From NCBI GenBank assembly GCA_002170165.1, contig NHFY01000062.1, positions 69,670-133,669 on the forward strand: a stretch of 64,000 nucleotides of DNA, read 5' to 3'. The notes beneath the pieces are model-generated. The model was not told where the DNA came from. It was given only the letters and a program-made list of their open reading frames with translations, and did not search any database. Shown here piece by piece: positions 40,040 to 51,588 of this stretch. The number at the start of each line of letters is the position of its first letter. Positions within the stretch are counted from its first letter, which is position 1. The DNA comes from Flavobacteriales bacterium TMED123 (GTDB lineage: Bacteria > Bacteroidota > Bacteroidia > Flavobacteriales > BACL11). Position numbers and translations under genes: made by a program.

Positions 40040-40061
40040 TAAAAGAACACTGTTTTAGCAT
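40040..40061 (-). other. Hairpin in the metK leader
   Basis: GCTAAAA-CAGTGTTC-TTTTAGC on the minus strand, a 7-bp stem in the approximately 110-base untranslated leader. It is not followed by a T-run, and no SAM aptamer is recognisable on this side. Confidence 0.4.
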
Positions 40062-40106
40062 TTTTTTTAGTGGTTGCAATAGGCCAAATCTTTCCACTTG
40101 GGTGGG

Positions 40107-40172: not shown

Positions 40173-40312
40173 AGACTTATCAAGAAAGACGGAGGGACGG
40201 GCCCTTTGATGTCTTGGCAACCCTGAAAAGCAGGGTGCTAATTCCCACTCCAAAATTTGGAGGAAGATGAGCGAAATCCACAAAATTTCCCCACATCTTT
40301 TTTGCTAAGTCT
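40173..40312 (+). promoter_or_regulatory. SAM-I (S-box) riboswitch controlling metH
   Basis: Contains the conserved SAM-I core: CTTATCAAGA, GGAGGGACGGGCCC, TTGGCAACC, then CAGGGTGCTAATTCC. P1 closes perfectly between AGACTTA (40173-40179) and TAAGTCT (40306-40312). The P1 3' strand ends only 14 bases before the metH ATG and no terminator hairpin follows, so control is more likely at translation initiation. Binding of SAM would be expected to turn metH off. Confidence 0.9.
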
Positions 40313-40326
40313 TGTAAAAGCAAACA

Positions 40327-43300
40327 ATGAGCAAGACAATCGATAATATATTATCAGAACGCATCTTGGTTTTAGATGGCGCTATGGGGACCATGATCCA
40401 AAGATATGGTTTAACGGAAGCAGATTTTAGGGGAGAGGTATTCAAAAATCATCCTTGCGATTTGAAAGGGAATAACGATTTGCTTTCCATAACGTGTCCA
40501 GATATCATTAAAGATATTCATAAAGAGTATTTAGATGCTGGAGCAGATATTATTGAAACTAATACCTTTAGTAGTACTTCTATTGCGCAAGCAGATTATC
40601 AATTAGAGCATTCAGTATACCAATTGAATTACCAATCCGCTAAAATTGCGAAAGAAGTAGCTCTTTCTTGCACTACTTTCGATAAACCCAGATTTGTAGC
40701 AGGAGCAATTGGTCCTACAAACAGAACAGCATCTATTTCTCCAGATGTAGAAAATCCTGCATTCAGGCACATCACTTTTGATCAGTTAAAGTCGGCATAT
40801 GCAGAGCAAGTACAGGGGCTTGTTGATGGAGGTACTGATCTATTACTCGTAGAAACCGTTTTTGACACCTTAAATTGTAAAGCTGCTCTCTTTGCTATAG
40901 AAGAAGTATTTGAAGAAAAAGGTATACGTTTACCTATTTTAGTTTCGGGAACAATTACAGACGAAAGTGGCAGAACACTTTCTGGACAAACAGCAGAGGC
41001 ATTTTTGAATTCTATTTCGCATATCCCTTTGCTAAGTGTTGGTTTTAATTGTGCTTTGGGTACAAAAGCCATGCGTCCTTATGTACAGGAATTGGCAAAA
41101 AAAGCGCCATTTAATGTGAGTGCTTATCCTAATGCAGGGCTACCTAATGAAATGGGAGAGTATGATGAAAGTCCAGAGGCAATGGGTGCTCAATTAGAAG
41201 ATTTCATGCAAAGTGCTTTGGTTAATATAGTGGGGGGTTGCTGTGGGACAACTCCCCAGCACATTGCTGAATTTGCGCGACTAGCCACAAAATATACCCC
41301 CAGAAAAAAGCCTGATATTGCTAAAGCTATGCGATTAAGTGGTTTGGAAGCTGTTAGCATTACCCAAGCAAGTAATTTTGCTAATATAGGAGAGCGTACC
41401 AATGTAATGGGCTCTTTAAAATTTAAAAGACTCATAAAAGAAGAGCAGTTTGAAGAGGCTTTAGAGGTGGCACTTCATCAAGTAGAAGGAGGGGCGCAAG
41501 CCATAGATATAAATATGGATGATGGGATGTTAGATGGACAAGAATGCATGACACATTTTTTAAATTTAATTGCTTCGGATCCTGATATTTCTAAAGTGCC
41601 CATCATGATAGATTCTTCCAAATGGCATATTGTTGAAGCAGGACTTAAATGTATACAAGGCAAGGGAATTGTCAATTCTATTTCCTTAAAAGAAGGAGAA
41701 GAAGTTTTTAAAGCTCAAGCAAAAGCAATTATGCGATATGGTGCTGCTGTGGTGGTTATGGCATTTGATGAAAAAGGGCAGGCGGTTGAGTATGCTGATA
41801 AAATTCGTATTTGTGAAAGAGCTTATAATATATTGCTCAATGATGTTGGTTTTGCTGCTGAGGATATCATTTTCGATCCAAACATACTCACAGTTGCTAC
41901 AGGAATTCAGGAGCACAACAACTATGCTGTGGATTTTTTTAAAGCTACTAAATGGATAAAAGAAAACCTACCTCATGCCAAAGTGAGTGGAGGTGTGAGT
42001 AATGTTTCCTTTTCTTTCAGAGGTAATAATATAGTGCGTGAAGCCATGCACTCCGCCTTTTTATATCATGCCATAAATCATGGTTTGGATATGGGTATTG
42101 TAAATGCTGGAATGATTGAAGTCTATGAAGATATCCCCACAGATTTACTGAAAGCTGTAGAGGATGTACTTTTAAATTCTGATGATGGCGCTACTGAGCG
42201 TTTGGTCGATTTAGCAGAAAACATTAAAGGTGAAGGGAAACAAAGGGCTGAGGATTTATCTTGGAGAGAACAATCTGTTGAACAGAGGCTTTCGCATGCC
42301 CTAGTAAAAGGAATAGTAGCCTATATAGAAGAAGATGTAGAGGAAGCACGTCAAAAAATTGATAAACCTATAGAAGTAATTGAAGGACCACTAATGGATG
42401 GGATGGGAGTAGTAGGAGAGCTTTTTGGTGCTGGAAAAATGTTTTTACCTCAAGTGGTAAAATCAGCAAGGGTAATGAAGAAAGCAGTTGCCATACTCAC
42501 TCCTTACATAGAGCAAGAGAAAGCTGCAGGCTCTTCAGCTGGAAAAGTGCTATTAGCCACTGTAAAAGGAGATGTGCATGACATTGGTAAGAATATCTTA
42601 GGAGTGGTTTTGGGTTGTAATAATTATGAAATTATTGATTTGGGCGTAATGGTTCCTGCTGATAAAATTTTGGAAGAAGCCAAAAAGAATCAGGTAGATG
42701 TAATTGGCTTGAGCGGCTTAATAACCCCTTCTTTAGATGAAATGATTCATGTGGCCAAAGAAATGCAAAGGAATGATTTTCAACTCCCACTAATGATTGG
42801 CGGGGCTACTACTTCCAAAATTCATACGGCTGTAAAAATTGATGAGCATTACAACAACAATACAGTGGTACATGTACTGGATGCCTCCAAAGCAGTTGGC
42901 GTCACTAACAAATTGATTGGTAGTAATCATCAAGATTTTCAAGCTAAAGTTACTGATGAGTATAACGCAATAAAATCGAATTATTTAAGTAGAAAATCAG
43001 CTAAAGAATACTTGAGTATAAAGGACGCAAGAGCTAACAACTTGCAAAGTAATTGGCAAGAAATGGAAATCAAAAAGCCAAATCAGTTAGGAGTGCAAGT
43101 TTTTGATGAGGTTGATCTTGCCATTATTCGAGAATATATTGACTGGACACCCTTCTTTTTTACTTGGGAAATGCGCAAGAAATATCCTGCTATTTTAGAA
43201 GATGCAAAATTTGGAGAGCAAGCCAAGCAGCTTTTTGATGATGCCAATAAAATGTTAGACGATATCATAGACAACAAGTGGTTGCAGGCAAAAGCAGTAA

Positions 43301-43959
43301 TAGGTCTTTGGCAAGCTAACTCAGATGAAGATGATGTACATCTTTATGCAGATAGTGAAGACCTAGCTACTTTTAATTTCCTGCGCCAGCAATCCAAAAG
43401 GTCCAAAAACAATAGGAGTTTGGCTGATTTTGTAGCGCCACAATCCTCAGGAAAGCAGGATTATATGGGTGCCTTTTTGTGCACAGCAGGTTTAGGTATA
43501 GAAAAACAATTGGCTCATTATGAGCAAGAAAGCGATGATTATAACAGTATTATGCTCAAAGCATTGGCTGACAGATTAGCAGAAGCCTTAACTGAATACA
43601 TGCATGAAAGAATCAGAAAAGAAATATGGGGTTATGCAGCTGATGAAGCTTTTGCTAATGAAGATTTAATTGCAGAAAAGTACAAAGGCATCCGCCCAGC
43701 CCCTGGTTATACAGCATGCCCAGACCATACAGAAAAGCAAAAGATATTCAGCCTTTTAGATGCAGCAAAAATTGGTGCAAAGCTCACAGAAAATATGGCT
43801 ATGTATCCTAATGCTACTGTAAGCGGTTACTATTTTGCACATCCTGAAGCTAAGTATTTTAGTGTCGGGAAAGTGCAGGATGATCAGATAAAAGATTATG
43901 CAAAAAGAAAAAATCAAAGTATAGCAGAAACCGAAAAATGGCTCCTCTCTAATATTTAA
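40327..43959 (+). CDS. metH: Cobalamin-dependent methionine synthase
   Basis: Full-length 1210-residue MetH. Homocysteine-binding domain with Zn cysteines ([19 protein letters not shown]), pterin domain ([11 protein letters not shown]), B12-binding domain with [12 protein letters not shown] whose His ligates cobalt, and the C-terminal SAM-dependent reactivation domain ([14 protein letters not shown]). It methylates homocysteine from 5-methyl-THF. Controlled by the SAM-I riboswitch just upstream. metF follows 9 bases later and supplies its methyl donor. Confidence 0.98.
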
Positions 43960-43968
43960 AACAAGATT

Positions 43969-44922
43969 ATGAAAGTGACAGAACATATTATTCAAACAAA
44001 AAAAACTTTATTCTCCTTTGAGATTTTACCTCCTCTAAAAGGGAAAAGTATACAATCTATTTATGATTCTTTAGACCCACTTATGGAGTTTAAACCTCCT
44101 TTTGTAGATGTAACTTATCATAGAGAGGAGTATGTTTATAAGAAAAGAAAAGATTACTTACTAGAAAGGTATGCAGTACGCAAGCGCCCTGGAACAGTTG
44201 GGATTTGTGCTGCCATCATGAATAAATATCAAGTAGATACGGTTCCGCATATTATTTGTGGAGGATTCAATAAAGAGGAAACAGAAAATGCCTTAATCGA
44301 TTTAGATTTTTTAGGAGTAGATAATGTGTTGGTGCTAAGAGGAGACCCTATAAAATCAGAAACTTATTTTACACCAGAAGAAGGAGGTCATAGTTATGCA
44401 TCCGAATTGCTGCATCAAGTAGACAATATGAATAAAGGTATTTATTTAGATGAAGACTTGAAAAACTCTTCCCCTACCAATTTTTGTGTAGGAGTTGCGG
44501 GCTATCCGGAAAAACATTTTGAAGCGCCCAATATTCGTTCTGATTTACATTTTTTGAAAAAGAAAGTAGAAGCAGGAGCTGACTATATTGTTACCCAAAT
44601 GTTTTTTGATAATCAGCAGTATTTTGATTTTGTTGCGCTTTGCCGAGACAATGATATCAATGTACCTATTATACCAGGCCTAAAACCTCTTGCTACCCAA
44701 AAACAGTTGACCTTATTACCTCAAAGGTTTCATTTGAATGTTCCTAATCCGCTAGTAGACGAGGTGCTTAAATGTAAAAGTAATGATGAGGTTCGTCAAG
44801 TTGGTGTTGAGTGGGGAAAGCAACAAGTAAAAGAGTTGATTGAATTTGGTGCCCCATGCATTCATTTTTACACTATGGGGAAATCGGATAATGTACAGCA
44901 GATAGTAGGTAGCTTTGTTTAG
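43969..44922 (+). CDS. metF: 5,10-methylenetetrahydrofolate reductase
   Basis: FAD-dependent TIM-barrel enzyme, 317 residues, producing 5-methyl-THF for MetH. Recognised by FSFEILPPLKGKSIQ, DVTYH, NVLVLRGDP, YPEKHFEA, the Gln/Phe-rich FDNQQYFDFV, and IIPGLKPL. Directly downstream of metH, so it probably shares the riboswitch-controlled message. Its last 4 bases overlap the end of the converging ATPase gene. Confidence 0.96.
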   Translation: MKVTEHIIQTKKTLFSFEILPPLKGKSIQSIYDSLDPLMEFKPPFVDVTYHREEYVYKKRKDYLLERYAVRKRPGTVGICAAIMNKYQVDTVPHIICGGFNKEETENALIDLDFLGVDNVLVLRGDPIKSETYFTPEEGGHSYASELLHQVDNMNKGIYLDEDLKNSSPTNFCVGVAGYPEKHFEAPNIRSDLHFLKKKVEAGADYIVTQMFFDNQQYFDFVALCRDNDINVPIIPGLKPLATQKQLTLLPQRFHLNVPNPLVDEVLKCKSNDEVRQVGVEWGKQQVKELIEFGAPCIHFYTMGKSDNVQQIVGSFV

Positions 44923-45620
44923 GTAGTTAGCTTTCTGAAATGTTCTTCTAAGTTAATCTTGTTGTGCTGCAAATCAGTAATGAGCCTATCATCTACAATC
45001 TTTCCATTATTGATGATAAGTATGCGATTACACATTTTATCCACCTCTTGCATGATGTGTGTTGAAAGCAAAACGGTTTTATCTTTGCCTACCTCTTTTA
45101 TCAAGTTCCGGATTTCTACTAATTGATTGGGGTCTAATCCAGTAGTGGGCTCATCCAGAATTAAGATTTCGGGATTATGAATAAGGGCTGCAGCCAAGCC
45201 GACTCTTTGTCTGTATCCTTTAGAAAGCGCATCAATTTTTTTGTGTTGTTCAGCACTTAGGCCAGTTTGTGTAATCACCTCCTCAACCCTTTTAACGATA
45301 TTCTCAATATCGTAAATACGTCCCAAAAAAGTCAGATATTCCTTAATGTACATATCGGTATAGAGTGGATTGTTTTCTGGTAAATAGCCAATTTTTTCTT
45401 TTACCGCTAACGGGTTTTCAATAGTGTCCAAATCACACACTTTTAGCGTTCCACTATCTTGAGAGAAATAGCAACAGATAATTTTTATTAGTGTAGATTT
45501 TCCTGCTCCATTAGGGCCTAAAAATCCAATAATTTCTCCTTTTTTTATGCTAAAAGAAACTTCAGAAAGCGCTTGCTGTGTGCCGTAAAACTTATTGATT
45601 TTTTCTATTTTAATAGACAT
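44919..45620 (-). CDS. GldA-like ABC transporter ATPase
   Basis: A single ABC ATPase domain: Walker A GPNGAGKST (residues about 35-43), signature LSKGYRQRVGLA, Walker B LILDEPTTGLDP, switch STHIMQEV. The sequence from FLGPNGAGKST onward resembles GldA, the ATPase of the gliding-associated GldAFG transporter, but GldA is about 300 residues and this ends at 233, lacking the C-terminal domain. No permease gene (gldF/gldG) is adjacent, so the partner must lie elsewhere. It converges on metF with a 4-base overlap. Could also be a general ABC-2 exporter ATPase. Confidence 0.8.
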   Translation of the reverse strand: MSIKIEKINKFYGTQQALSEVSFSIKKGEIIGFLGPNGAGKSTLIKIICCYFSQDSGTLKVCDLDTIENPLAVKEKIGYLPENNPLYTDMYIKEYLTFLGRIYDIENIVKRVEEVITQTGLSAEQHKKIDALSKGYRQRVGLAAALIHNPEILILDEPTTGLDPNQLVEIRNLIKEVGKDKTVLLSTHIMQEVDKMCNRILIINNGKIVDDRLITDLQHNKINLEEHFRKLTT

Positions 45621-45624
45621 TAGG

Positions 45625-45632
45625 CAAAGATA
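45625..45632 (-). promoter_or_regulatory. -7 element of the GldA-like gene, leaderless layout
   Basis: Minus-strand TATCTTTG, exact TAnnTTTG, ends 4 bases before the ATG at 45620. Confidence 0.6.
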
Positions 45633-45656
45633 AAAATAGAAAGTGGTTTACTTAAA

Positions 45657-45706
45657 AATTATTCTCTTTTCTGCTTTTGCATTTTTAAATGTAAAATAGA
45701 AGGGTG
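45657..45706 (+). repeat. Hairpin direct repeat, left copy
   Basis: About 50 bases beginning AATTATTCTCTTTTCT and matching 46610-46660 in the same orientation. It can fold into a long hairpin centred on CATTT / AAATG. It lies between the divergent GldA-like and sulfotransferase genes. Confidence 0.7.
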
Positions 45707-45755
45707 TTTTTTTCAATTTAGAAAGAGAAAAAAGAACCCATATTTTAATATTTAC

Positions 45756-45788
45756 TTTGGTTCTATTCTGATTATTATCATAATTTTG
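45756..45788 (+). promoter_or_regulatory. Promoter of the lone sulfotransferase, leaderless layout
   Basis: -33 TTTG (45756-45759), 21-base spacer, -7 TAATTTTG (45781-45788), ending 4 bases before ATG 45793. One of the clearest full promoters in the window. Confidence 0.75.
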
Positions 45789-45792
45789 CAGC

Positions 45793-46608
45793 ATGAAATT
45801 ACACACCTCTCCAAGATGGTACCTGCATCTTAGTTATTATCGAGCATTAAAATTTAGTAGGTTTTTTACAAATAATCTTTTTGGAAGAGAAAAACATATT
45901 TTTCTATTTATTTTAACACCACCATTTTGTGGTTCAACATTACTGAATCAGATTTTATCTACTTCCAATAATTTGAGTTGCAATAATCATTTAGGAGTTA
46001 GAGAAGGTCAGTTGCTTCCGGAACTTAAAGATATGATGTTTTACAATAAAGGTTGGCATAATGATGTAAATTATGACTGGCCATTTATCAAAAAAACTTG
46101 GATGAAGTATTGGGATCAAAGAAAAGCGATTTTAATGGATAAGAGTAATACAAATATAATGCGTGTAGCTAAAATAAAAGAGGTATTTGATAATGCTATT
46201 TTTTTGGCAATGGTAAGAAACCCTTATGCGCATGCGGAAGGTATAATGAGAAGAAATGGCGCTACACCTGAATATGCAGCAAATTTTGCAATAAAATGTT
46301 TGAGATACCAAAAAGAAAACAAGTTATCTGAAAAAGAAAATATATTATTTATTTCTTACGAGAACTTGTGTGATAGTACAGAGCAAGTCATAAAAAACAT
46401 TAACAGTTTTATTCCTGAACTTGGGAAGGTTAATGCTGAATTAGAGTTCTCGGCTCACAATTTTAAGACAGAAGGAAAAATGAAGATACAGAACCTTAAT
46501 GATGAAAAAATTAAGAAACTAAGTAAAAAAGATATAGGTATTATCAATACCTTCTTTAAGAAAGAAGAAGAATTGTTACAGTTTTTTGACTATTCAATTA
46601 TTGAATAA
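45793..46608 (+). CDS. Sulfotransferase-family protein
   Basis: A 271-residue protein with a sulfotransferase-type nucleotide loop (IFLFILTPPFCGSTLLNQIL, about 36-55) and AMVRNPYAHAEGIMRRNG in place of the 3'-phosphate motif. The Lys common in the PAPS loop of many members is absent here (TPPFCGST). It is distinct from the polysaccharide-locus sulfotransferase. It is a single-gene unit with its own promoter, bracketed by two copies of a hairpin repeat, so it may be an inserted cassette. Substrate unknown. Confidence 0.75.
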   Translation: MKLHTSPRWYLHLSYYRALKFSRFFTNNLFGREKHIFLFILTPPFCGSTLLNQILSTSNNLSCNNHLGVREGQLLPELKDMMFYNKGWHNDVNYDWPFIKKTWMKYWDQRKAILMDKSNTNIMRVAKIKEVFDNAIFLAMVRNPYAHAEGIMRRNGATPEYAANFAIKCLRYQKENKLSEKENILFISYENLCDSTEQVIKNINSFIPELGKVNAELEFSAHNFKTEGKMKIQNLNDEKIKKLSKKDIGIINTFFKKEEELLQFFDYSIIE

Positions 46609-46609
46609 T

Positions 46610-46660
46610 AATTATTCTCTTTTCTACTTTTTCATTTTCATAAATGTAAAGTAGAGGGGA
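46610..46660 (+). repeat. Hairpin direct repeat, right copy
   Basis: About 51 bases matching the left copy. Folds as TCTACTTT-TT-CATTT-TCAT-AAATG-T-AAAGTAGA with further G:U pairs outside. Starts 2 bases after the sulfotransferase stop and may also end its transcript. Confidence 0.7.
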
Positions 46661-46664
46661 ATTG

Positions 46665-46672
46665 TATATTTG
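46665..46672 (+). promoter_or_regulatory. -7 element of rsgA, leaderless layout
   Basis: TATATTTG, exact TAnnTTTG, ends 4 bases before ATG 46677. Confidence 0.6.
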
Positions 46673-46676
46673 CCCT

Positions 46677-47591
46677 ATGCTAGCAGTAGTGATAAAATCC
46701 ACAGGTAGTTGGTATACCGTAAAAACAACAAAGGGGCAAGTGTTGGATTGCAGAATAAAAGGAAAATTTCGCATTAAAGGTATTAAAAGTACTAATCCTA
46801 TTGTGGTAGGGGATTTGGTTAGCATTGAGCTAGAAGGAGAAAGTTGGCTGATTACAACCTTAGAAGAGCGTAAAAATTTTATTGTTCGTAAATCCGTAAA
46901 CTTAAGTAAGCAAATCCACATTATTGCTTCCAATGTTGATCAGGCAATATTAATGGTAACCATTCAAAGCCCTATTACCACTACTGGATTTATCGATCGT
47001 TTTTTAGCAGCTGCTCAATCCTATGGTATACAGCTGCTTATCATCTTCAACAAACTAGATATTTACAATAAAGAGATGATGCAGAAACAACAAGAGTTGC
47101 ACAAGTTGTATGAGAAAATCGGCTACTCTTGCATTGCAATTTCTGTATTGCATGACAATCTGGATGCTGTAAAAGGAGCAATGAAAAATAAAGTAAATGT
47201 AATTGCTGGGCATTCTGGAGTGGGCAAATCAACCCTTATCAATAAGCTACAGCCTGGATTGAATTTGGCTACTAAAACCATTTCAGAAATTCATAAGCAA
47301 GGTCAGCATACTACTACTTTCTCTGAGATGTATGAGCTTGATTTTGGCGCTTGGATCATTGATACTCCTGGAATAAGAGGTTTCGGACTGGTCGAAATTA
47401 AAAAGAAAGAGTTAGGGGATTATTTCAAAGAATTCTTAGCTCTAAAACAGAAGTGTAAATTCCATAATTGCATACATGTAAATGAGCCAGATTGTGCCAT
47501 AAAAGAGGGGTTAAGAAAAGGTAGTATTGCAGAAAGCAGGTTTGCTAGTTATTTAAGTATGTTAGAAGAAGAAACAACTTACAGAATATGA
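46677..47591 (+). CDS. rsgA: Ribosome small-subunit GTPase RsgA
   Basis: Circularly permuted GTPase for late 30S maturation, 304 residues. An OB-fold N-terminus is followed by G4 NKLD, then G1 GHSGVGKSTLINKL and G3 DTPGIRGFGL, the permuted order that defines the family. The C-terminal zinc knuckle is CKFHNCIHVNEPDC. ATG 46677 is preferred over an ATG five codons upstream because the -7 element overlaps that region. Its end overlaps dtd by 4 bases. Confidence 0.95.
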   Translation: MLAVVIKSTGSWYTVKTTKGQVLDCRIKGKFRIKGIKSTNPIVVGDLVSIELEGESWLITTLEERKNFIVRKSVNLSKQIHIIASNVDQAILMVTIQSPITTTGFIDRFLAAAQSYGIQLLIIFNKLDIYNKEMMQKQQELHKLYEKIGYSCIAISVLHDNLDAVKGAMKNKVNVIAGHSGVGKSTLINKLQPGLNLATKTISEIHKQGQHTTTFSEMYELDFGAWIIDTPGIRGFGLVEIKKKELGDYFKEFLALKQKCKFHNCIHVNEPDCAIKEGLRKGSIAESRFASYLSMLEEETTYRI

Positions 47592-48040
47592 GAGCAGTAA
47601 TACAAAGAGTAAGTGAGGCTTCAGTTCAGATAGAAAATCAGCAAGTTGCGACAATTAAAAGAGGGCTTTTAATTTTATTAGGCATTGAATTAGAAGACAC
47701 TCTAGAAGATGTAAAATGGTTGTCTAATAAAATTACTCAACTCCGTATTTTTTCCGATGATGAAGGGAAAATGAATAAGTCTGTCGTAGAAGCAGATGGA
47801 AGTGCTATTGTAGTAAGTCAGTTTACCCTTCATGCAAAAACTAAAAAAGGAAACAGACCCTCTTATGTAAAAGCAGCAAGACCAGAAAAAGCTTTTTCTT
47901 TATATGAGAAATTTAAAAAGGGTCTTTCTGATGGAATTGGCAAAAAAGTACAATCCGGAGAATTTGGCGCAGAGATGCAAGTCTCTCTTGTAAATGATGG
48001 CCCTGTCACTATATTAATTGACACCAAAAATAAGGAATAA
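47588..48040 (+). CDS. dtd: D-aminoacyl-tRNA deacylase
   Basis: A 150-residue homodimeric editing enzyme that removes D-amino acids (and Gly from tRNA-Ala). Shows MRAVIQRVSEASV at the start, VSQFTL in the catalytic region, and the cross-subunit Gly-cis-Pro motif NDGPVTI near the end. It is translationally coupled to rsgA through an ATGA overlap. Its stop is immediately adjacent to that of the converging lipoprotein gene. Confidence 0.96.
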   Translation: MRAVIQRVSEASVQIENQQVATIKRGLLILLGIELEDTLEDVKWLSNKITQLRIFSDDEGKMNKSVVEADGSAIVVSQFTLHAKTKKGNRPSYVKAARPEKAFSLYEKFKKGLSDGIGKKVQSGEFGAEMQVSLVNDGPVTILIDTKNKE

Positions 48041-48685
48041 TTATTTTTTCATTCCACTAGGAATTCCGTAAAAATGTATGATATCAATTTTTTCAGAAAG
48101 CGACATTAAACCTGGATTAATTCCTAATTTGTTTTGTGGGATTTTAACTTCTAAATCTGTATAATATTCTTTCCACGCATCTATTGTGTCATTTGTTTTC
48201 GGATGAATAAATGTCATTGGTTTTAATTCAAATATGCTATCATTTTGAAAAGCTTCATAAATAAGTTCAGAGCAATAATAACTATCGTTATTCATGATGA
48301 ATACATTATCATATTTTGCGCCTATTTTTGAAAATAAAAACCTTATCCCTCCTTTTATGCTATGTGAGTACTCATCTTTGAATCTTCCTACAATCACTTT
48401 CGGATTTCCGTCTTTGTCAGATGATTTATTTAAGAAATCTTTCAAAGAAGTTAGTTGTACAATAGGAGGTATTGCTTCTAAAACTTTAAGCGTGCCTTTA
48501 TCTAAAACAACTATTCCTATATGAGAAAAATTAGACCCTTTATACCCAGGTGTAACTACCTCAATTGCATCACACAATGGGGAAGAATCTAAATCTTGAA
48601 ACAATAAATCCCCTTCTTTTAAATGGAACTGCTCGTTACAAGAAAAAAGCGTAATAATAAGTAGTAAAAAAAAGATATTTTTCAT
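48041..48685 (-). CDS. YiiX-like NlpC/P60-type lipoprotein
   Basis: A 214-residue lipoprotein (LLIITLFSC, Cys at residue 16) of the permuted papain fold. Catalytic His is in FSHIGIVV and the Cys in YYCSELIYEAF, the inverted order characteristic of the YiiX/YebB and LRAT-like group. EGDLLFQDLDSSPLCDAIE is the family entry motif. Such enzymes cleave or transfer acyl or peptide groups; the substrate here is unknown. It has its own leaderless-type promoter and runs away from atpC's terminator. Confidence 0.88.
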   Translation of the reverse strand: MKNIFFLLLIITLFSCNEQFHLKEGDLLFQDLDSSPLCDAIEVVTPGYKGSNFSHIGIVVLDKGTLKVLEAIPPIVQLTSLKDFLNKSSDKDGNPKVIVGRFKDEYSHSIKGGIRFLFSKIGAKYDNVFIMNNDSYYCSELIYEAFQNDSIFELKPMTFIHPKTNDTIDAWKEYYTDLEVKIPQNKLGINPGLMSLSEKIDIIHFYGIPSGMKK

Positions 48686-48689
48686 TTTT

Positions 48690-48697
48690 CAAACATA
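48690..48697 (-). promoter_or_regulatory. -7 element of the YiiX-like gene, leaderless layout
   Basis: Minus-strand TATGTTTG, exact TAnnTTTG, ends 4 bases before the ATG at 48685. It abuts the atpDC terminator. Confidence 0.6.
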
Positions 48698-48698
48698 A

Positions 48699-48729
48699 AA
48701 AAAGAGGACTACAATCTAATCCTCTTTTT
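48699..48729 (-). terminator. Terminator of atpD-atpC
   Basis: 10-bp stem AAAAAGAGGA / TCCTCTTTTT with an 11-base loop, 18 bases past the atpC stop; A/T flanks on both sides. Confidence 0.85.
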
Positions 48730-48747
48730 AAATTTATTCAGTCGTGA

Positions 48748-48984
48748 TTAATCTGCTAAAACAACAATCTTATTATTTTGCATTTCAATTACACCACCAT
48801 TAATTGAAAGGTGCTCTGTTTTTTTGTCAGCTGTAATAATTCTAATATCACCTTTTGTAAGAGCTGAAATAATTGGCGCGTGATTATTTAAAATCTCAAA
48901 TCCACCAGAAATTCCTGGAAATTTTACGCTTGTCACCTCTCCTTCAAAGGCTTTCTTTTCTGGGGTAATTATTTCTAAAAACAT
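48748..48984 (-). CDS. atpC: ATP synthase F1 epsilon subunit (short form)
   Basis: A 78-residue epsilon subunit holding only the N-terminal beta-sandwich (TPEKKAFEGEVTSVKFPG, LNNHAPIISAL, VIEMQNNKIVVLAD) and lacking the C-terminal helical hairpin that inhibits ATP hydrolysis in E. coli. Short epsilons are usual in Bacteroidota. It follows atpD by 9 bases. The rest of the ATP synthase genes are not in this window, in line with the split arrangement in this phylum. Confidence 0.94.
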   Translation of the reverse strand: MFLEIITPEKKAFEGEVTSVKFPGISGGFEILNNHAPIISALTKGDIRIITADKKTEHLSINGGVIEMQNNKIVVLAD

Positions 48985-48993
48985 CTATTCTTT

Positions 48994-50532
<1,539 letters not shown>

Positions 50533-50559
50533 CTAATTTTGCAATAATTTTTTCGGCTC

Positions 50560-50567
50560 CAAATGTA
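50560..50567 (-). promoter_or_regulatory. atpD -7 promoter element
   Basis: Minus-strand TACATTTG, exact TAnnTTTG, 57 bases before the atpD start. At the -33 position the sequence is ATTG rather than TTTG. Confidence 0.55.
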
Positions 50568-50594
50568 TTATTTTTAATTTGTTTTACCATCAAT

Positions 50595-50622
50595 AAATTA
50601 ACAATAAATTAATTGTTAATTT
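50595..50622. promoter_or_regulatory. Inverted repeat between atpD and ribF
   Basis: Perfect 11-bp arms AAATTAACAAT / ATTGTTAATTT separated by 6 bases, located just upstream of the atpD -33 region and 39 bases before ribF. Candidate operator for a dimeric regulator; the sequence is all but one C/G pair AT-rich, so chance or an UP-like element is also possible. Confidence 0.4.
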
Positions 50623-50661
50623 TGAACACTTTTTTAACATATATTATAGAGATAATAAATA

Positions 50662-51588
50662 GTGAAAATATTTTCTTCCATTCCTGATTTTCCTTCAGAA
50701 ACTAAAACAATTCTAACCATTGGTACTTTTGATGGAGTACATTTGGGACATAGCGTTATTCTTAATCGGTTAAATGCAATTACTGAAAAAACAAAAATGC
50801 AATCGGTTTTGCTTACTTTCTTTCCTCATCCAAGACATGTATTGCAAAAAACCGATCAGGACATGAAACTCATCAATACTTTAGATGAGAAAAAACTATT
50901 GTTGGAAAAATCAGGACTTAATAATTTAGTGGTACAGGAATTTACAAAAGAATTCTCAAGAATTCAATCTGCTAATTTTGTAAGAGATTATTTAGTCGAA
51001 AAACTGAATCTACACACATTGGTTATCGGTTACGATCATCATTTTGGGCGCAACAGAGAGGGGTCTATTAAGGAATTGACTGTTCTATCAGAAATATATG
51101 GTTTTAATATAGAAATGATTTCGCCACAGATTTTTGAGGATGTAGCAGTGAGTTCCACTAAAATCCGAAAACTATTAGAAAAGGGAGAAATTGAGCAAGC
51201 AAATCACTACTTAGGTTATACATTTTTTATTTTCGGAAAAGTGATAAGAGGTAATGCTATTGGAAAAACAATAGGTTTTCCTACTGCTAATATTGAAATT
51301 GAAAATAAATGGAAGCTGTATCCTGCTGAAGGGGTATATGCGGTGCAAGTAATACTAGAAGAAAGAACATATAAGGGGATGATGAATATTGGTAATAGAC
51401 CAACTGTTGAAGGGGATAAAAAAACATTGGAAGTTCATCTACTTGATTTTTCAGAGGATATTTATGAAAAACAGTTGCAAATAAAGTTTATTAAAAAAAT
51501 TAGAGAAGAGAAAAAGTTTGAAAATTTAGACGCACTGAAACAACAGTTAATTATTGATAAAAATAAAGTAGAGCATTTAATAGGATGA
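50662..51588 (+). CDS. ribF: Bifunctional riboflavin kinase / FAD synthetase
   Basis: Converts riboflavin to FMN, then FAD; 308 residues. The N-terminal adenylyltransferase half carries GTFDGVHLGH with the HxGH nucleotide motif, and VSSTKIRKLLEKG; the C-terminal kinase half carries GNAIGKTIGFPTANIE and MNIGNRPTV. The start codon is GTG at 50662, directly before the conserved N-terminus; no in-frame ATG fits. Transcribed divergently from atpD. Confidence 0.95.
   Translation: MKIFSSIPDFPSETKTILTIGTFDGVHLGHSVILNRLNAITEKTKMQSVLLTFFPHPRHVLQKTDQDMKLINTLDEKKLLLEKSGLNNLVVQEFTKEFSRIQSANFVRDYLVEKLNLHTLVIGYDHHFGRNREGSIKELTVLSEIYGFNIEMISPQIFEDVAVSSTKIRKLLEKGEIEQANHYLGYTFFIFGKVIRGNAIGKTIGFPTANIEIENKWKLYPAEGVYAVQVILEERTYKGMMNIGNRPTVEGDKKTLEVHLLDFSEDIYEKQLQIKFIKKIREEKKFENLDALKQQLIIDKNKVEHLIG

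Follow-up and report, generated by a model that had tools for sequence, protein, structure and literature searches.

A sulfotransferase gene in the marine bacterium Flavobacteriales bacterium TMED123 stands alone between two direct copies of a sequence of roughly 50 bases, each of which can fold into a hairpin. This arrangement raises the question of what the repeat is and how it came to lie on both sides of a single gene. The first-pass annotation of the region proposed a mobile or duplicated single-gene cassette, or a gene inserted by recombination between the repeats. Here, the whole 64,000-nucleotide stretch of contig NHFY01000062.1 that was analysed is referred to as the window, and the locus is compared with its counterparts in related genomes.

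The repeat pair and the gene between its copies

The two copies, each about 52 bases long (45653-45704 and 46606-46659), bracket the sulfotransferase gene (Table 1) and are 87% identical over 54 aligned columns. They are made up of two blocks, one 91% identical (D1, 45653-45685 versus 46606-46638) and the other 89% identical (D4, 45686-45704 versus 46641-46659), both in the same orientation. The same-orientation repeat and the one-gene unit between its copies, consisting of a single open reading frame (ORF), are therefore present as first described. In blastn comparisons, the two copies match each other with an E value of about 1e-10 among the compared loci and 3.8e-11 across the whole genome from which the window derives (2.14 Mb, 73.6% complete). 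The next DNA match in that genome has an E value of 0.035, so at the DNA level the repeat is a two-copy sequence there. The search for further copies that the first-pass annotation had called for thus yields just two strong DNA copies in this genome, and the sequence is met elsewhere as family-wide gene ends.

Table 1. Features of the variable site and its borders (positions in the window)
Feature	Position	Strand	Remarks
GldA-like ABC transporter ATPase gene	44919..45620	-	Left border of the variable site; ABC_tran E 6.1e-30; neighbour of rsgA in relatives
Left repeat	45653..45712	-	Frameshifted 3' stub of a tail-bearing gene; reverse complement is a hairpin followed by a T run
TAATTTTG, presumed -7-like motif	45781..45788	+	Just before the sulfotransferase start; matched in G023
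Sulfotransferase gene, 271 aa	45793..46608	+	Accessory; PF13469 (Sulfotransfer_3) E 8.8e-11
Right repeat	46598..46660	-	In-frame 3' stub PLLYIYENEKVEKRIIIIQ-stop, most likely of a deleted T322
AATTGTATATTTGCCC, rsgA promoter/leader	46661..46676	+	Identical to G023 up to the deletion point
rsgA	46677..47591	+	Right border of the variable site; RsgA_GTPase E 1.4e-53

The sulfotransferase gene is matched in 22 of the 52 genomes of the family at E<=1e-30, and at this threshold no match was found in the three other members of the genus. It occupies the site between the same border genes in the window and in the related genomes G023, G061 and G062, and lies elsewhere in G059; close relatives of the gene occur at other genomic places as well. 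Between the window and the three genomes that share the site, identity is 74-76% for the sulfotransferase, 73-74% for gldA and 64-66% for rsgA, values with which both shared descent and horizontal acquisition from genus g10 would be compatible. No solved structure matches the protein by sequence at E<=0.1. The gene had also been credited with the best promoter in the window. For sigma-70 this does not hold, since a scan of 44000-49000 returned 21 sites against 21.3 expected and the site of the sulfotransferase gene was not the best of them. The gene does possess one of just five sites in the window of the form TTTG-N18-22-TAnnTTTG, which we take to be the Bacteroidetes-type promoter motif.

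A conserved C-terminal tail encoded by the repeat

A DNA search of 40 relatives gave 28 listed matches to the repeat at E<=1e-4 outside the window's genome, and these fall in 15 of the 24 same-family relatives searched and in none outside the family. Such matches suggested a dispersed non-coding repeat family, a candidate that was rejected when the copies were translated. Thirty aligned copies, including the two of the window, translate as one tail on the opposite strand (one of them, L087_2391, appears to match by chance and is not counted in the fold medians given below), and intact ORFs in relatives end with this tail. Read in reverse complement, the repeat is a gene end that encodes a short C-terminal tail, and relatives have whole tail-bearing genes where the window has its copies. 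Across 78 proteins, the tail has a length of about 35 residues and the consensus KkLiKItDlLGREtk..NqPLFYIYDDGTVEKkIIIE, after which comes a stop codon. At E<=0.01, a protein-level search detects the tail 2-47 times in each of the 52 family genomes; across the order, 92 of 296 genomes have it at E<=0.001. Most of the listed tail matches belong to long open frames. Of the 89 tails first collected, 69 have the 5' side of their frame within the locus, and 55 of these are positive in a crude signal-peptide test.

Both copies in the window lack the body of such a gene. On the minus strand, the right copy reads in frame as ...NSPLLYIYENEKVEKRIIIIQ-stop and is matched by the tblastn tail search of its own genome (E 0.007), with about 20 codons remaining before the rsgA leader. 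In the left copy, a 2-base deletion separates KNTLLFYI from NAKAEKRIIFK-stop, which lies in the next frame. This copy runs into the short space before the sulfotransferase gene; it was not recovered by the protein-level tail search of the same genome. After EKRII the ends diverge, to FK-stop in the left copy and IIQ-stop in the right.

The tail is a candidate short relative of the type A sorting signal of the type IX secretion system (T9SS), with a putative role in export. Like the T9SS type A sorting domain (PF18962, TIGR04183), it stands at the very C-terminus of Bacteroidota proteins with signal peptides, and its VxxLGR stretch aligns, below cut-off, to the first half of the models. Unlike that domain, it has only about 35 residues and leaves the second half of the models unmatched, the matches spanning model positions 7-40 only. 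All 10 tails compared scored below the cut-offs (best 15.9 bits for PF18962, cut-off 27; best 17.3 for TIGR04183, cut-off 23); the window's own genome contains 31 PF18962 matches above the cut-off. An hhalign comparison of the 78 tails with 19 sorting domains of this genome gave a 29% probability over 20 columns. Judged by these alignments, the family-wide tail is possibly an unmodelled short T9SS sorting signal. A tail of this kind, missed by current T9SS models, could raise the predicted number of secreted proteins in these marine bacteria. Literature searches for the exact string YIYDDGTVEKR in article text and for work joining T9SS and pseudogenes found nothing among the papers covered.

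Probable gene turnover between gldA and rsgA

The border genes (the name GldA-like was taken from the earlier sequence-only reading) were surveyed at 32 chosen junctions, 30 of which have both genes on one stretch (G013 and G062 fall outside the 30). The gap between them measures 36-335 bp in 17 of the 30 genomes and 1,056-4,354 bp in the other 13. Tail remains are found in two of the 17 short gaps (G056 and G058), and no repeat was seen in the other 15.

The right copy is best understood through a tail-bearing gene of about 322 codons, here labelled T322. Among the 52 family genomes searched at E<=1e-30, T322 lies divergently beside rsgA in all 14 that hold it, and it was not found in the genome of the window. 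Four copies of its product have no Pfam or NCBIfam match; in T322 of L084 (2624-3598) the stretch EEVIHTINHVGH gives the impression of a putative metallopeptidase. G023 and G062 both carry the GldA-like gene, the sulfotransferase, a convergent T322 and rsgA, in this order, with T322 of G062 split across two contigs. In G061, the gene convergent to the sulfotransferase is a different tail-bearing gene, and T322 follows further on; this different gene (L180, 5505-5620) has a stop codon inside its tail, by which the sorting end would be lost. In these three genomes, the place of the right copy is thus taken by the end of a neighbour gene that is whole or almost so. In the window, the stop codon of the right stub overlaps that of the sulfotransferase gene by 11 bases, the stop-stop overlap TATTCAATTATTGAATAATAA is common to G023 and the window, and the overlap is also kept in G061 and G062. 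On the other side, the rsgA leader agrees exactly with that of G023 up to the repeat.

Taken across genomes, this one junction displays a decay series: an intact T322, an internally deleted T322 in G056, where 75 codons are left and the repeat is the tail of the shortened gene, a stub in G058, and absence. In G058, the sequence on the rsgA side is identical to the start region of G023 T322 at 63 of 66 positions, and on the tail side decayed tail sequence upstream of the stub is identical to the end of G023 T322 at 75 of 100 positions. The first-pass annotation had asked whether relatives have the neighbours directly adjacent with a single repeat copy; this is the case at one of the 17 short junctions, that of G058, and because the copy there is flanked by remains of both T322 ends, it is a deletion remnant and not an empty cassette site. 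The window represents the stub stage of this series, twice. A tblastn search with the whole T322 protein against the window's junction produced no convincing alignment among the matches listed, the tail being too short. As a separate observation, the joined parts of T322 in G056 (L193) are alike at VDxLG, which would fit a deletion guided by a short internal repeat.

For the left copy, the corresponding evidence lies beside the GldA-like gene. The distance from this gene to the sulfotransferase is 70 bp in G023 versus 172 bp in the window, and the extra part holds the left copy, which is absent from G023. The gldA-side sequence of the window aligns to G058 with the tail stub included (70 of 87 positions identical), and in G059, G060 and G064 the GldA-like gene is adjoined by the end of an intact tail-bearing gene. 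Tail-bearing genes therefore match both stub positions in relatives, with no single relative having both around the sulfotransferase.

These findings argue strongly that the repeats are the leftover 3' ends of two lost secreted-protein genes at a spot of gene turnover, a reading in which we have high confidence. The ancestral order would have been a tail-bearing gene beside the GldA-like gene, the sulfotransferase, and a convergent T322 divergent from rsgA. Two deletions would then have removed the gene bodies as far as the promoters of the genes diverging from them, namely the sulfotransferase gene and rsgA, and the tails would have stayed. Because the tail is so conserved, any two tail-bearing genes look like a repeat of about 50 bases. 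A dedicated mobility mechanism would be unnecessary, the gldA-rsgA site probably being a spot where genes turn over and the sulfotransferase one passenger.

Both hallmarks of a gene relic are found here, namely an intact homologue at the same place in relatives and a frame that is broken or a gene that is mostly gone; on the left side, the evidence includes the 2-base frameshifting deletion and the match in position with the G058 stub. Weighing against the origin from two lost genes are the mutual best match of the copies, their strong folds, the failure of the tail search to recover the left copy, and the occurrence of the full ancestral order in no single relative. As in pseudogene remnants and 3' gene stubs, there is a start-less but in-frame right copy and a frameshifted left copy, together with intact orthologues and intermediate deletions. 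What sets this case apart from usual gene stubs is that a gene happens to stand between two of them sharing one conserved end, which gives the appearance of a direct repeat. The attractive pattern most likely has an ordinary origin, in relic gene ends at a turnover site. Conserved secretion tails can imitate an element with direct repeats and hairpins in AT-rich Bacteroidota genomes, and scans may thus take gene relics for mobile cassettes.

At the same locus, rsgA of G002 is 86% identical to that of G023, which belongs to another genus, versus 65% to that of the window's genome, which belongs to its own. This pattern would reflect either exchange at the gldA-rsgA locus or a doubtful grouping.

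Duplication, hairpins and recombination as alternatives

In one alternative, only the right copy would be a direct gene relic and the left copy a short duplication of it. The two copies are mutual best matches among the 89 tails first collected, with a similarity score of 39 (next-best partners: 33 for the left copy, 38 for the right), and both carry a strong hairpin. Against this, such a level of similarity is normal among tails: a score of 39 or more is reached with at least one partner by 67 of 83 comparable tails, and by 613 of 3382 pairs when pairs scoring at least 55 are left out as one copy seen twice. The mutual likeness of the two copies is ordinary for two tail-bearing genes. In addition, the shared sequence stops where tail conservation stops, the ends differing after EKRII, and in alignment the left copy occupies the position that the tail stub has in G058. 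Duplication is not needed to explain the repeat, because two independent tail-bearing genes suffice, and we consider it unlikely.

The hairpins deserve separate consideration, since they might act as transcription terminators or leader structures whatever their origin. Each copy does fold on the plus strand, as originally noted, with -12.9 kcal/mol and z -3.2 for the left and -18.7 kcal/mol and z -3.4 for the right, and none of 200 shuffles was as good in either case. The change from A-U to G-U in the left copy, read earlier as a sign that structure matters, is real, but the neighbouring pair is C-G in the right copy and C.A in the left, where it is bulged in the fold; because this mismatch adjoins the G-U pair, the two copies give no net sign of compensatory change. 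When compared with 27 coding tails (median z -0.3, best -2.6), the left and right copies reach z -3.5 and -4.8 on the plus strand, and in a second sample of 79 intact tails anchored on their stop codons, one reaches z -3. Strong folding as a general property of the tails was therefore rejected, coding and intact tails folding poorly on this strand, and it is peculiar to the stubs of the window. The value depends on the segment folded: the right copy scores z -2.0 in a fixed 60-base segment, which truncates its 3' arm, and -4.7 in a longer segment, and none of five orphan or shortened tails, the right copy among them, folds strongly in the fixed segment.

The folds may have arisen by chance in two related AT-rich stubs, or may reflect a retained terminator or leader role. 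A TTTTTTT run directly follows the left stem and the right hairpin lies just past the sulfotransferase stop codon, both of which would suit termination. Conversely, no T run follows the right stem, neither hairpin appears among the terminators listed by a terminator scan, and the only plus-strand gene end before the left copy is that of metF, beyond the convergent gldA. A terminator or leader role is doubtful, and any putative hairpin function has a low probability; maintenance of the hairpins by selection is possible.

A further idea is that the tails offer recombination a common handle for swapping or deleting gene bodies, the two tails in the window then possibly being kept as RNA hairpins. 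In each genome, dozens of unrelated genes for secreted proteins have almost identical last 50 or so bases, and the gene that carries the tail beside the sulfotransferase is not the same in G061 as in G023 and G062. If the idea were true, gene bodies would be exchanged or deleted while the tail stays; we regard it as rather improbable.

The cassette first proposed, whether mobile or inserted by recombination and bounded by the repeats, is very improbable: an accessory gene at a variable site with direct repeats does exist, and the neighbours are adjacent with one repeat copy in G058, but the repeats are the coding ends of unrelated genes across the family, where they occur without the sulfotransferase, G023 has the sulfotransferase gene at this site but no left copy, the G058 copy lies inside a T322 remnant, the longest identical run between the copies is just 16 bases, and the ORFs of 42000-51000 gave no sign of a recombinase. 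What survives of that proposal is the accessory gene at a variable site; its repeats as ends of a mobile or duplicated cassette were rejected once the repeat proved to be a gene end and thus not specific to an element. Integron attC sites have the ends RYYYAAC and GTTRRRY, and neither motif was found in the two copies when read by eye. The locus resembles integron and other repeat-bounded cassettes in having a single accessory gene followed by an imperfect hairpin in direct orientation, and it differs from integron cassettes in that the repeat is coding sequence of neighbouring genes without attC-like ends.

Elsewhere in the window, a SAM-II riboswitch (40045-40103, minus strand) and a SAM-I riboswitch (40174-40273, plus strand) lie back to back, the latter just upstream of a 1210-aa ORF at 40327 that probably encodes a methionine-synthase-like protein.
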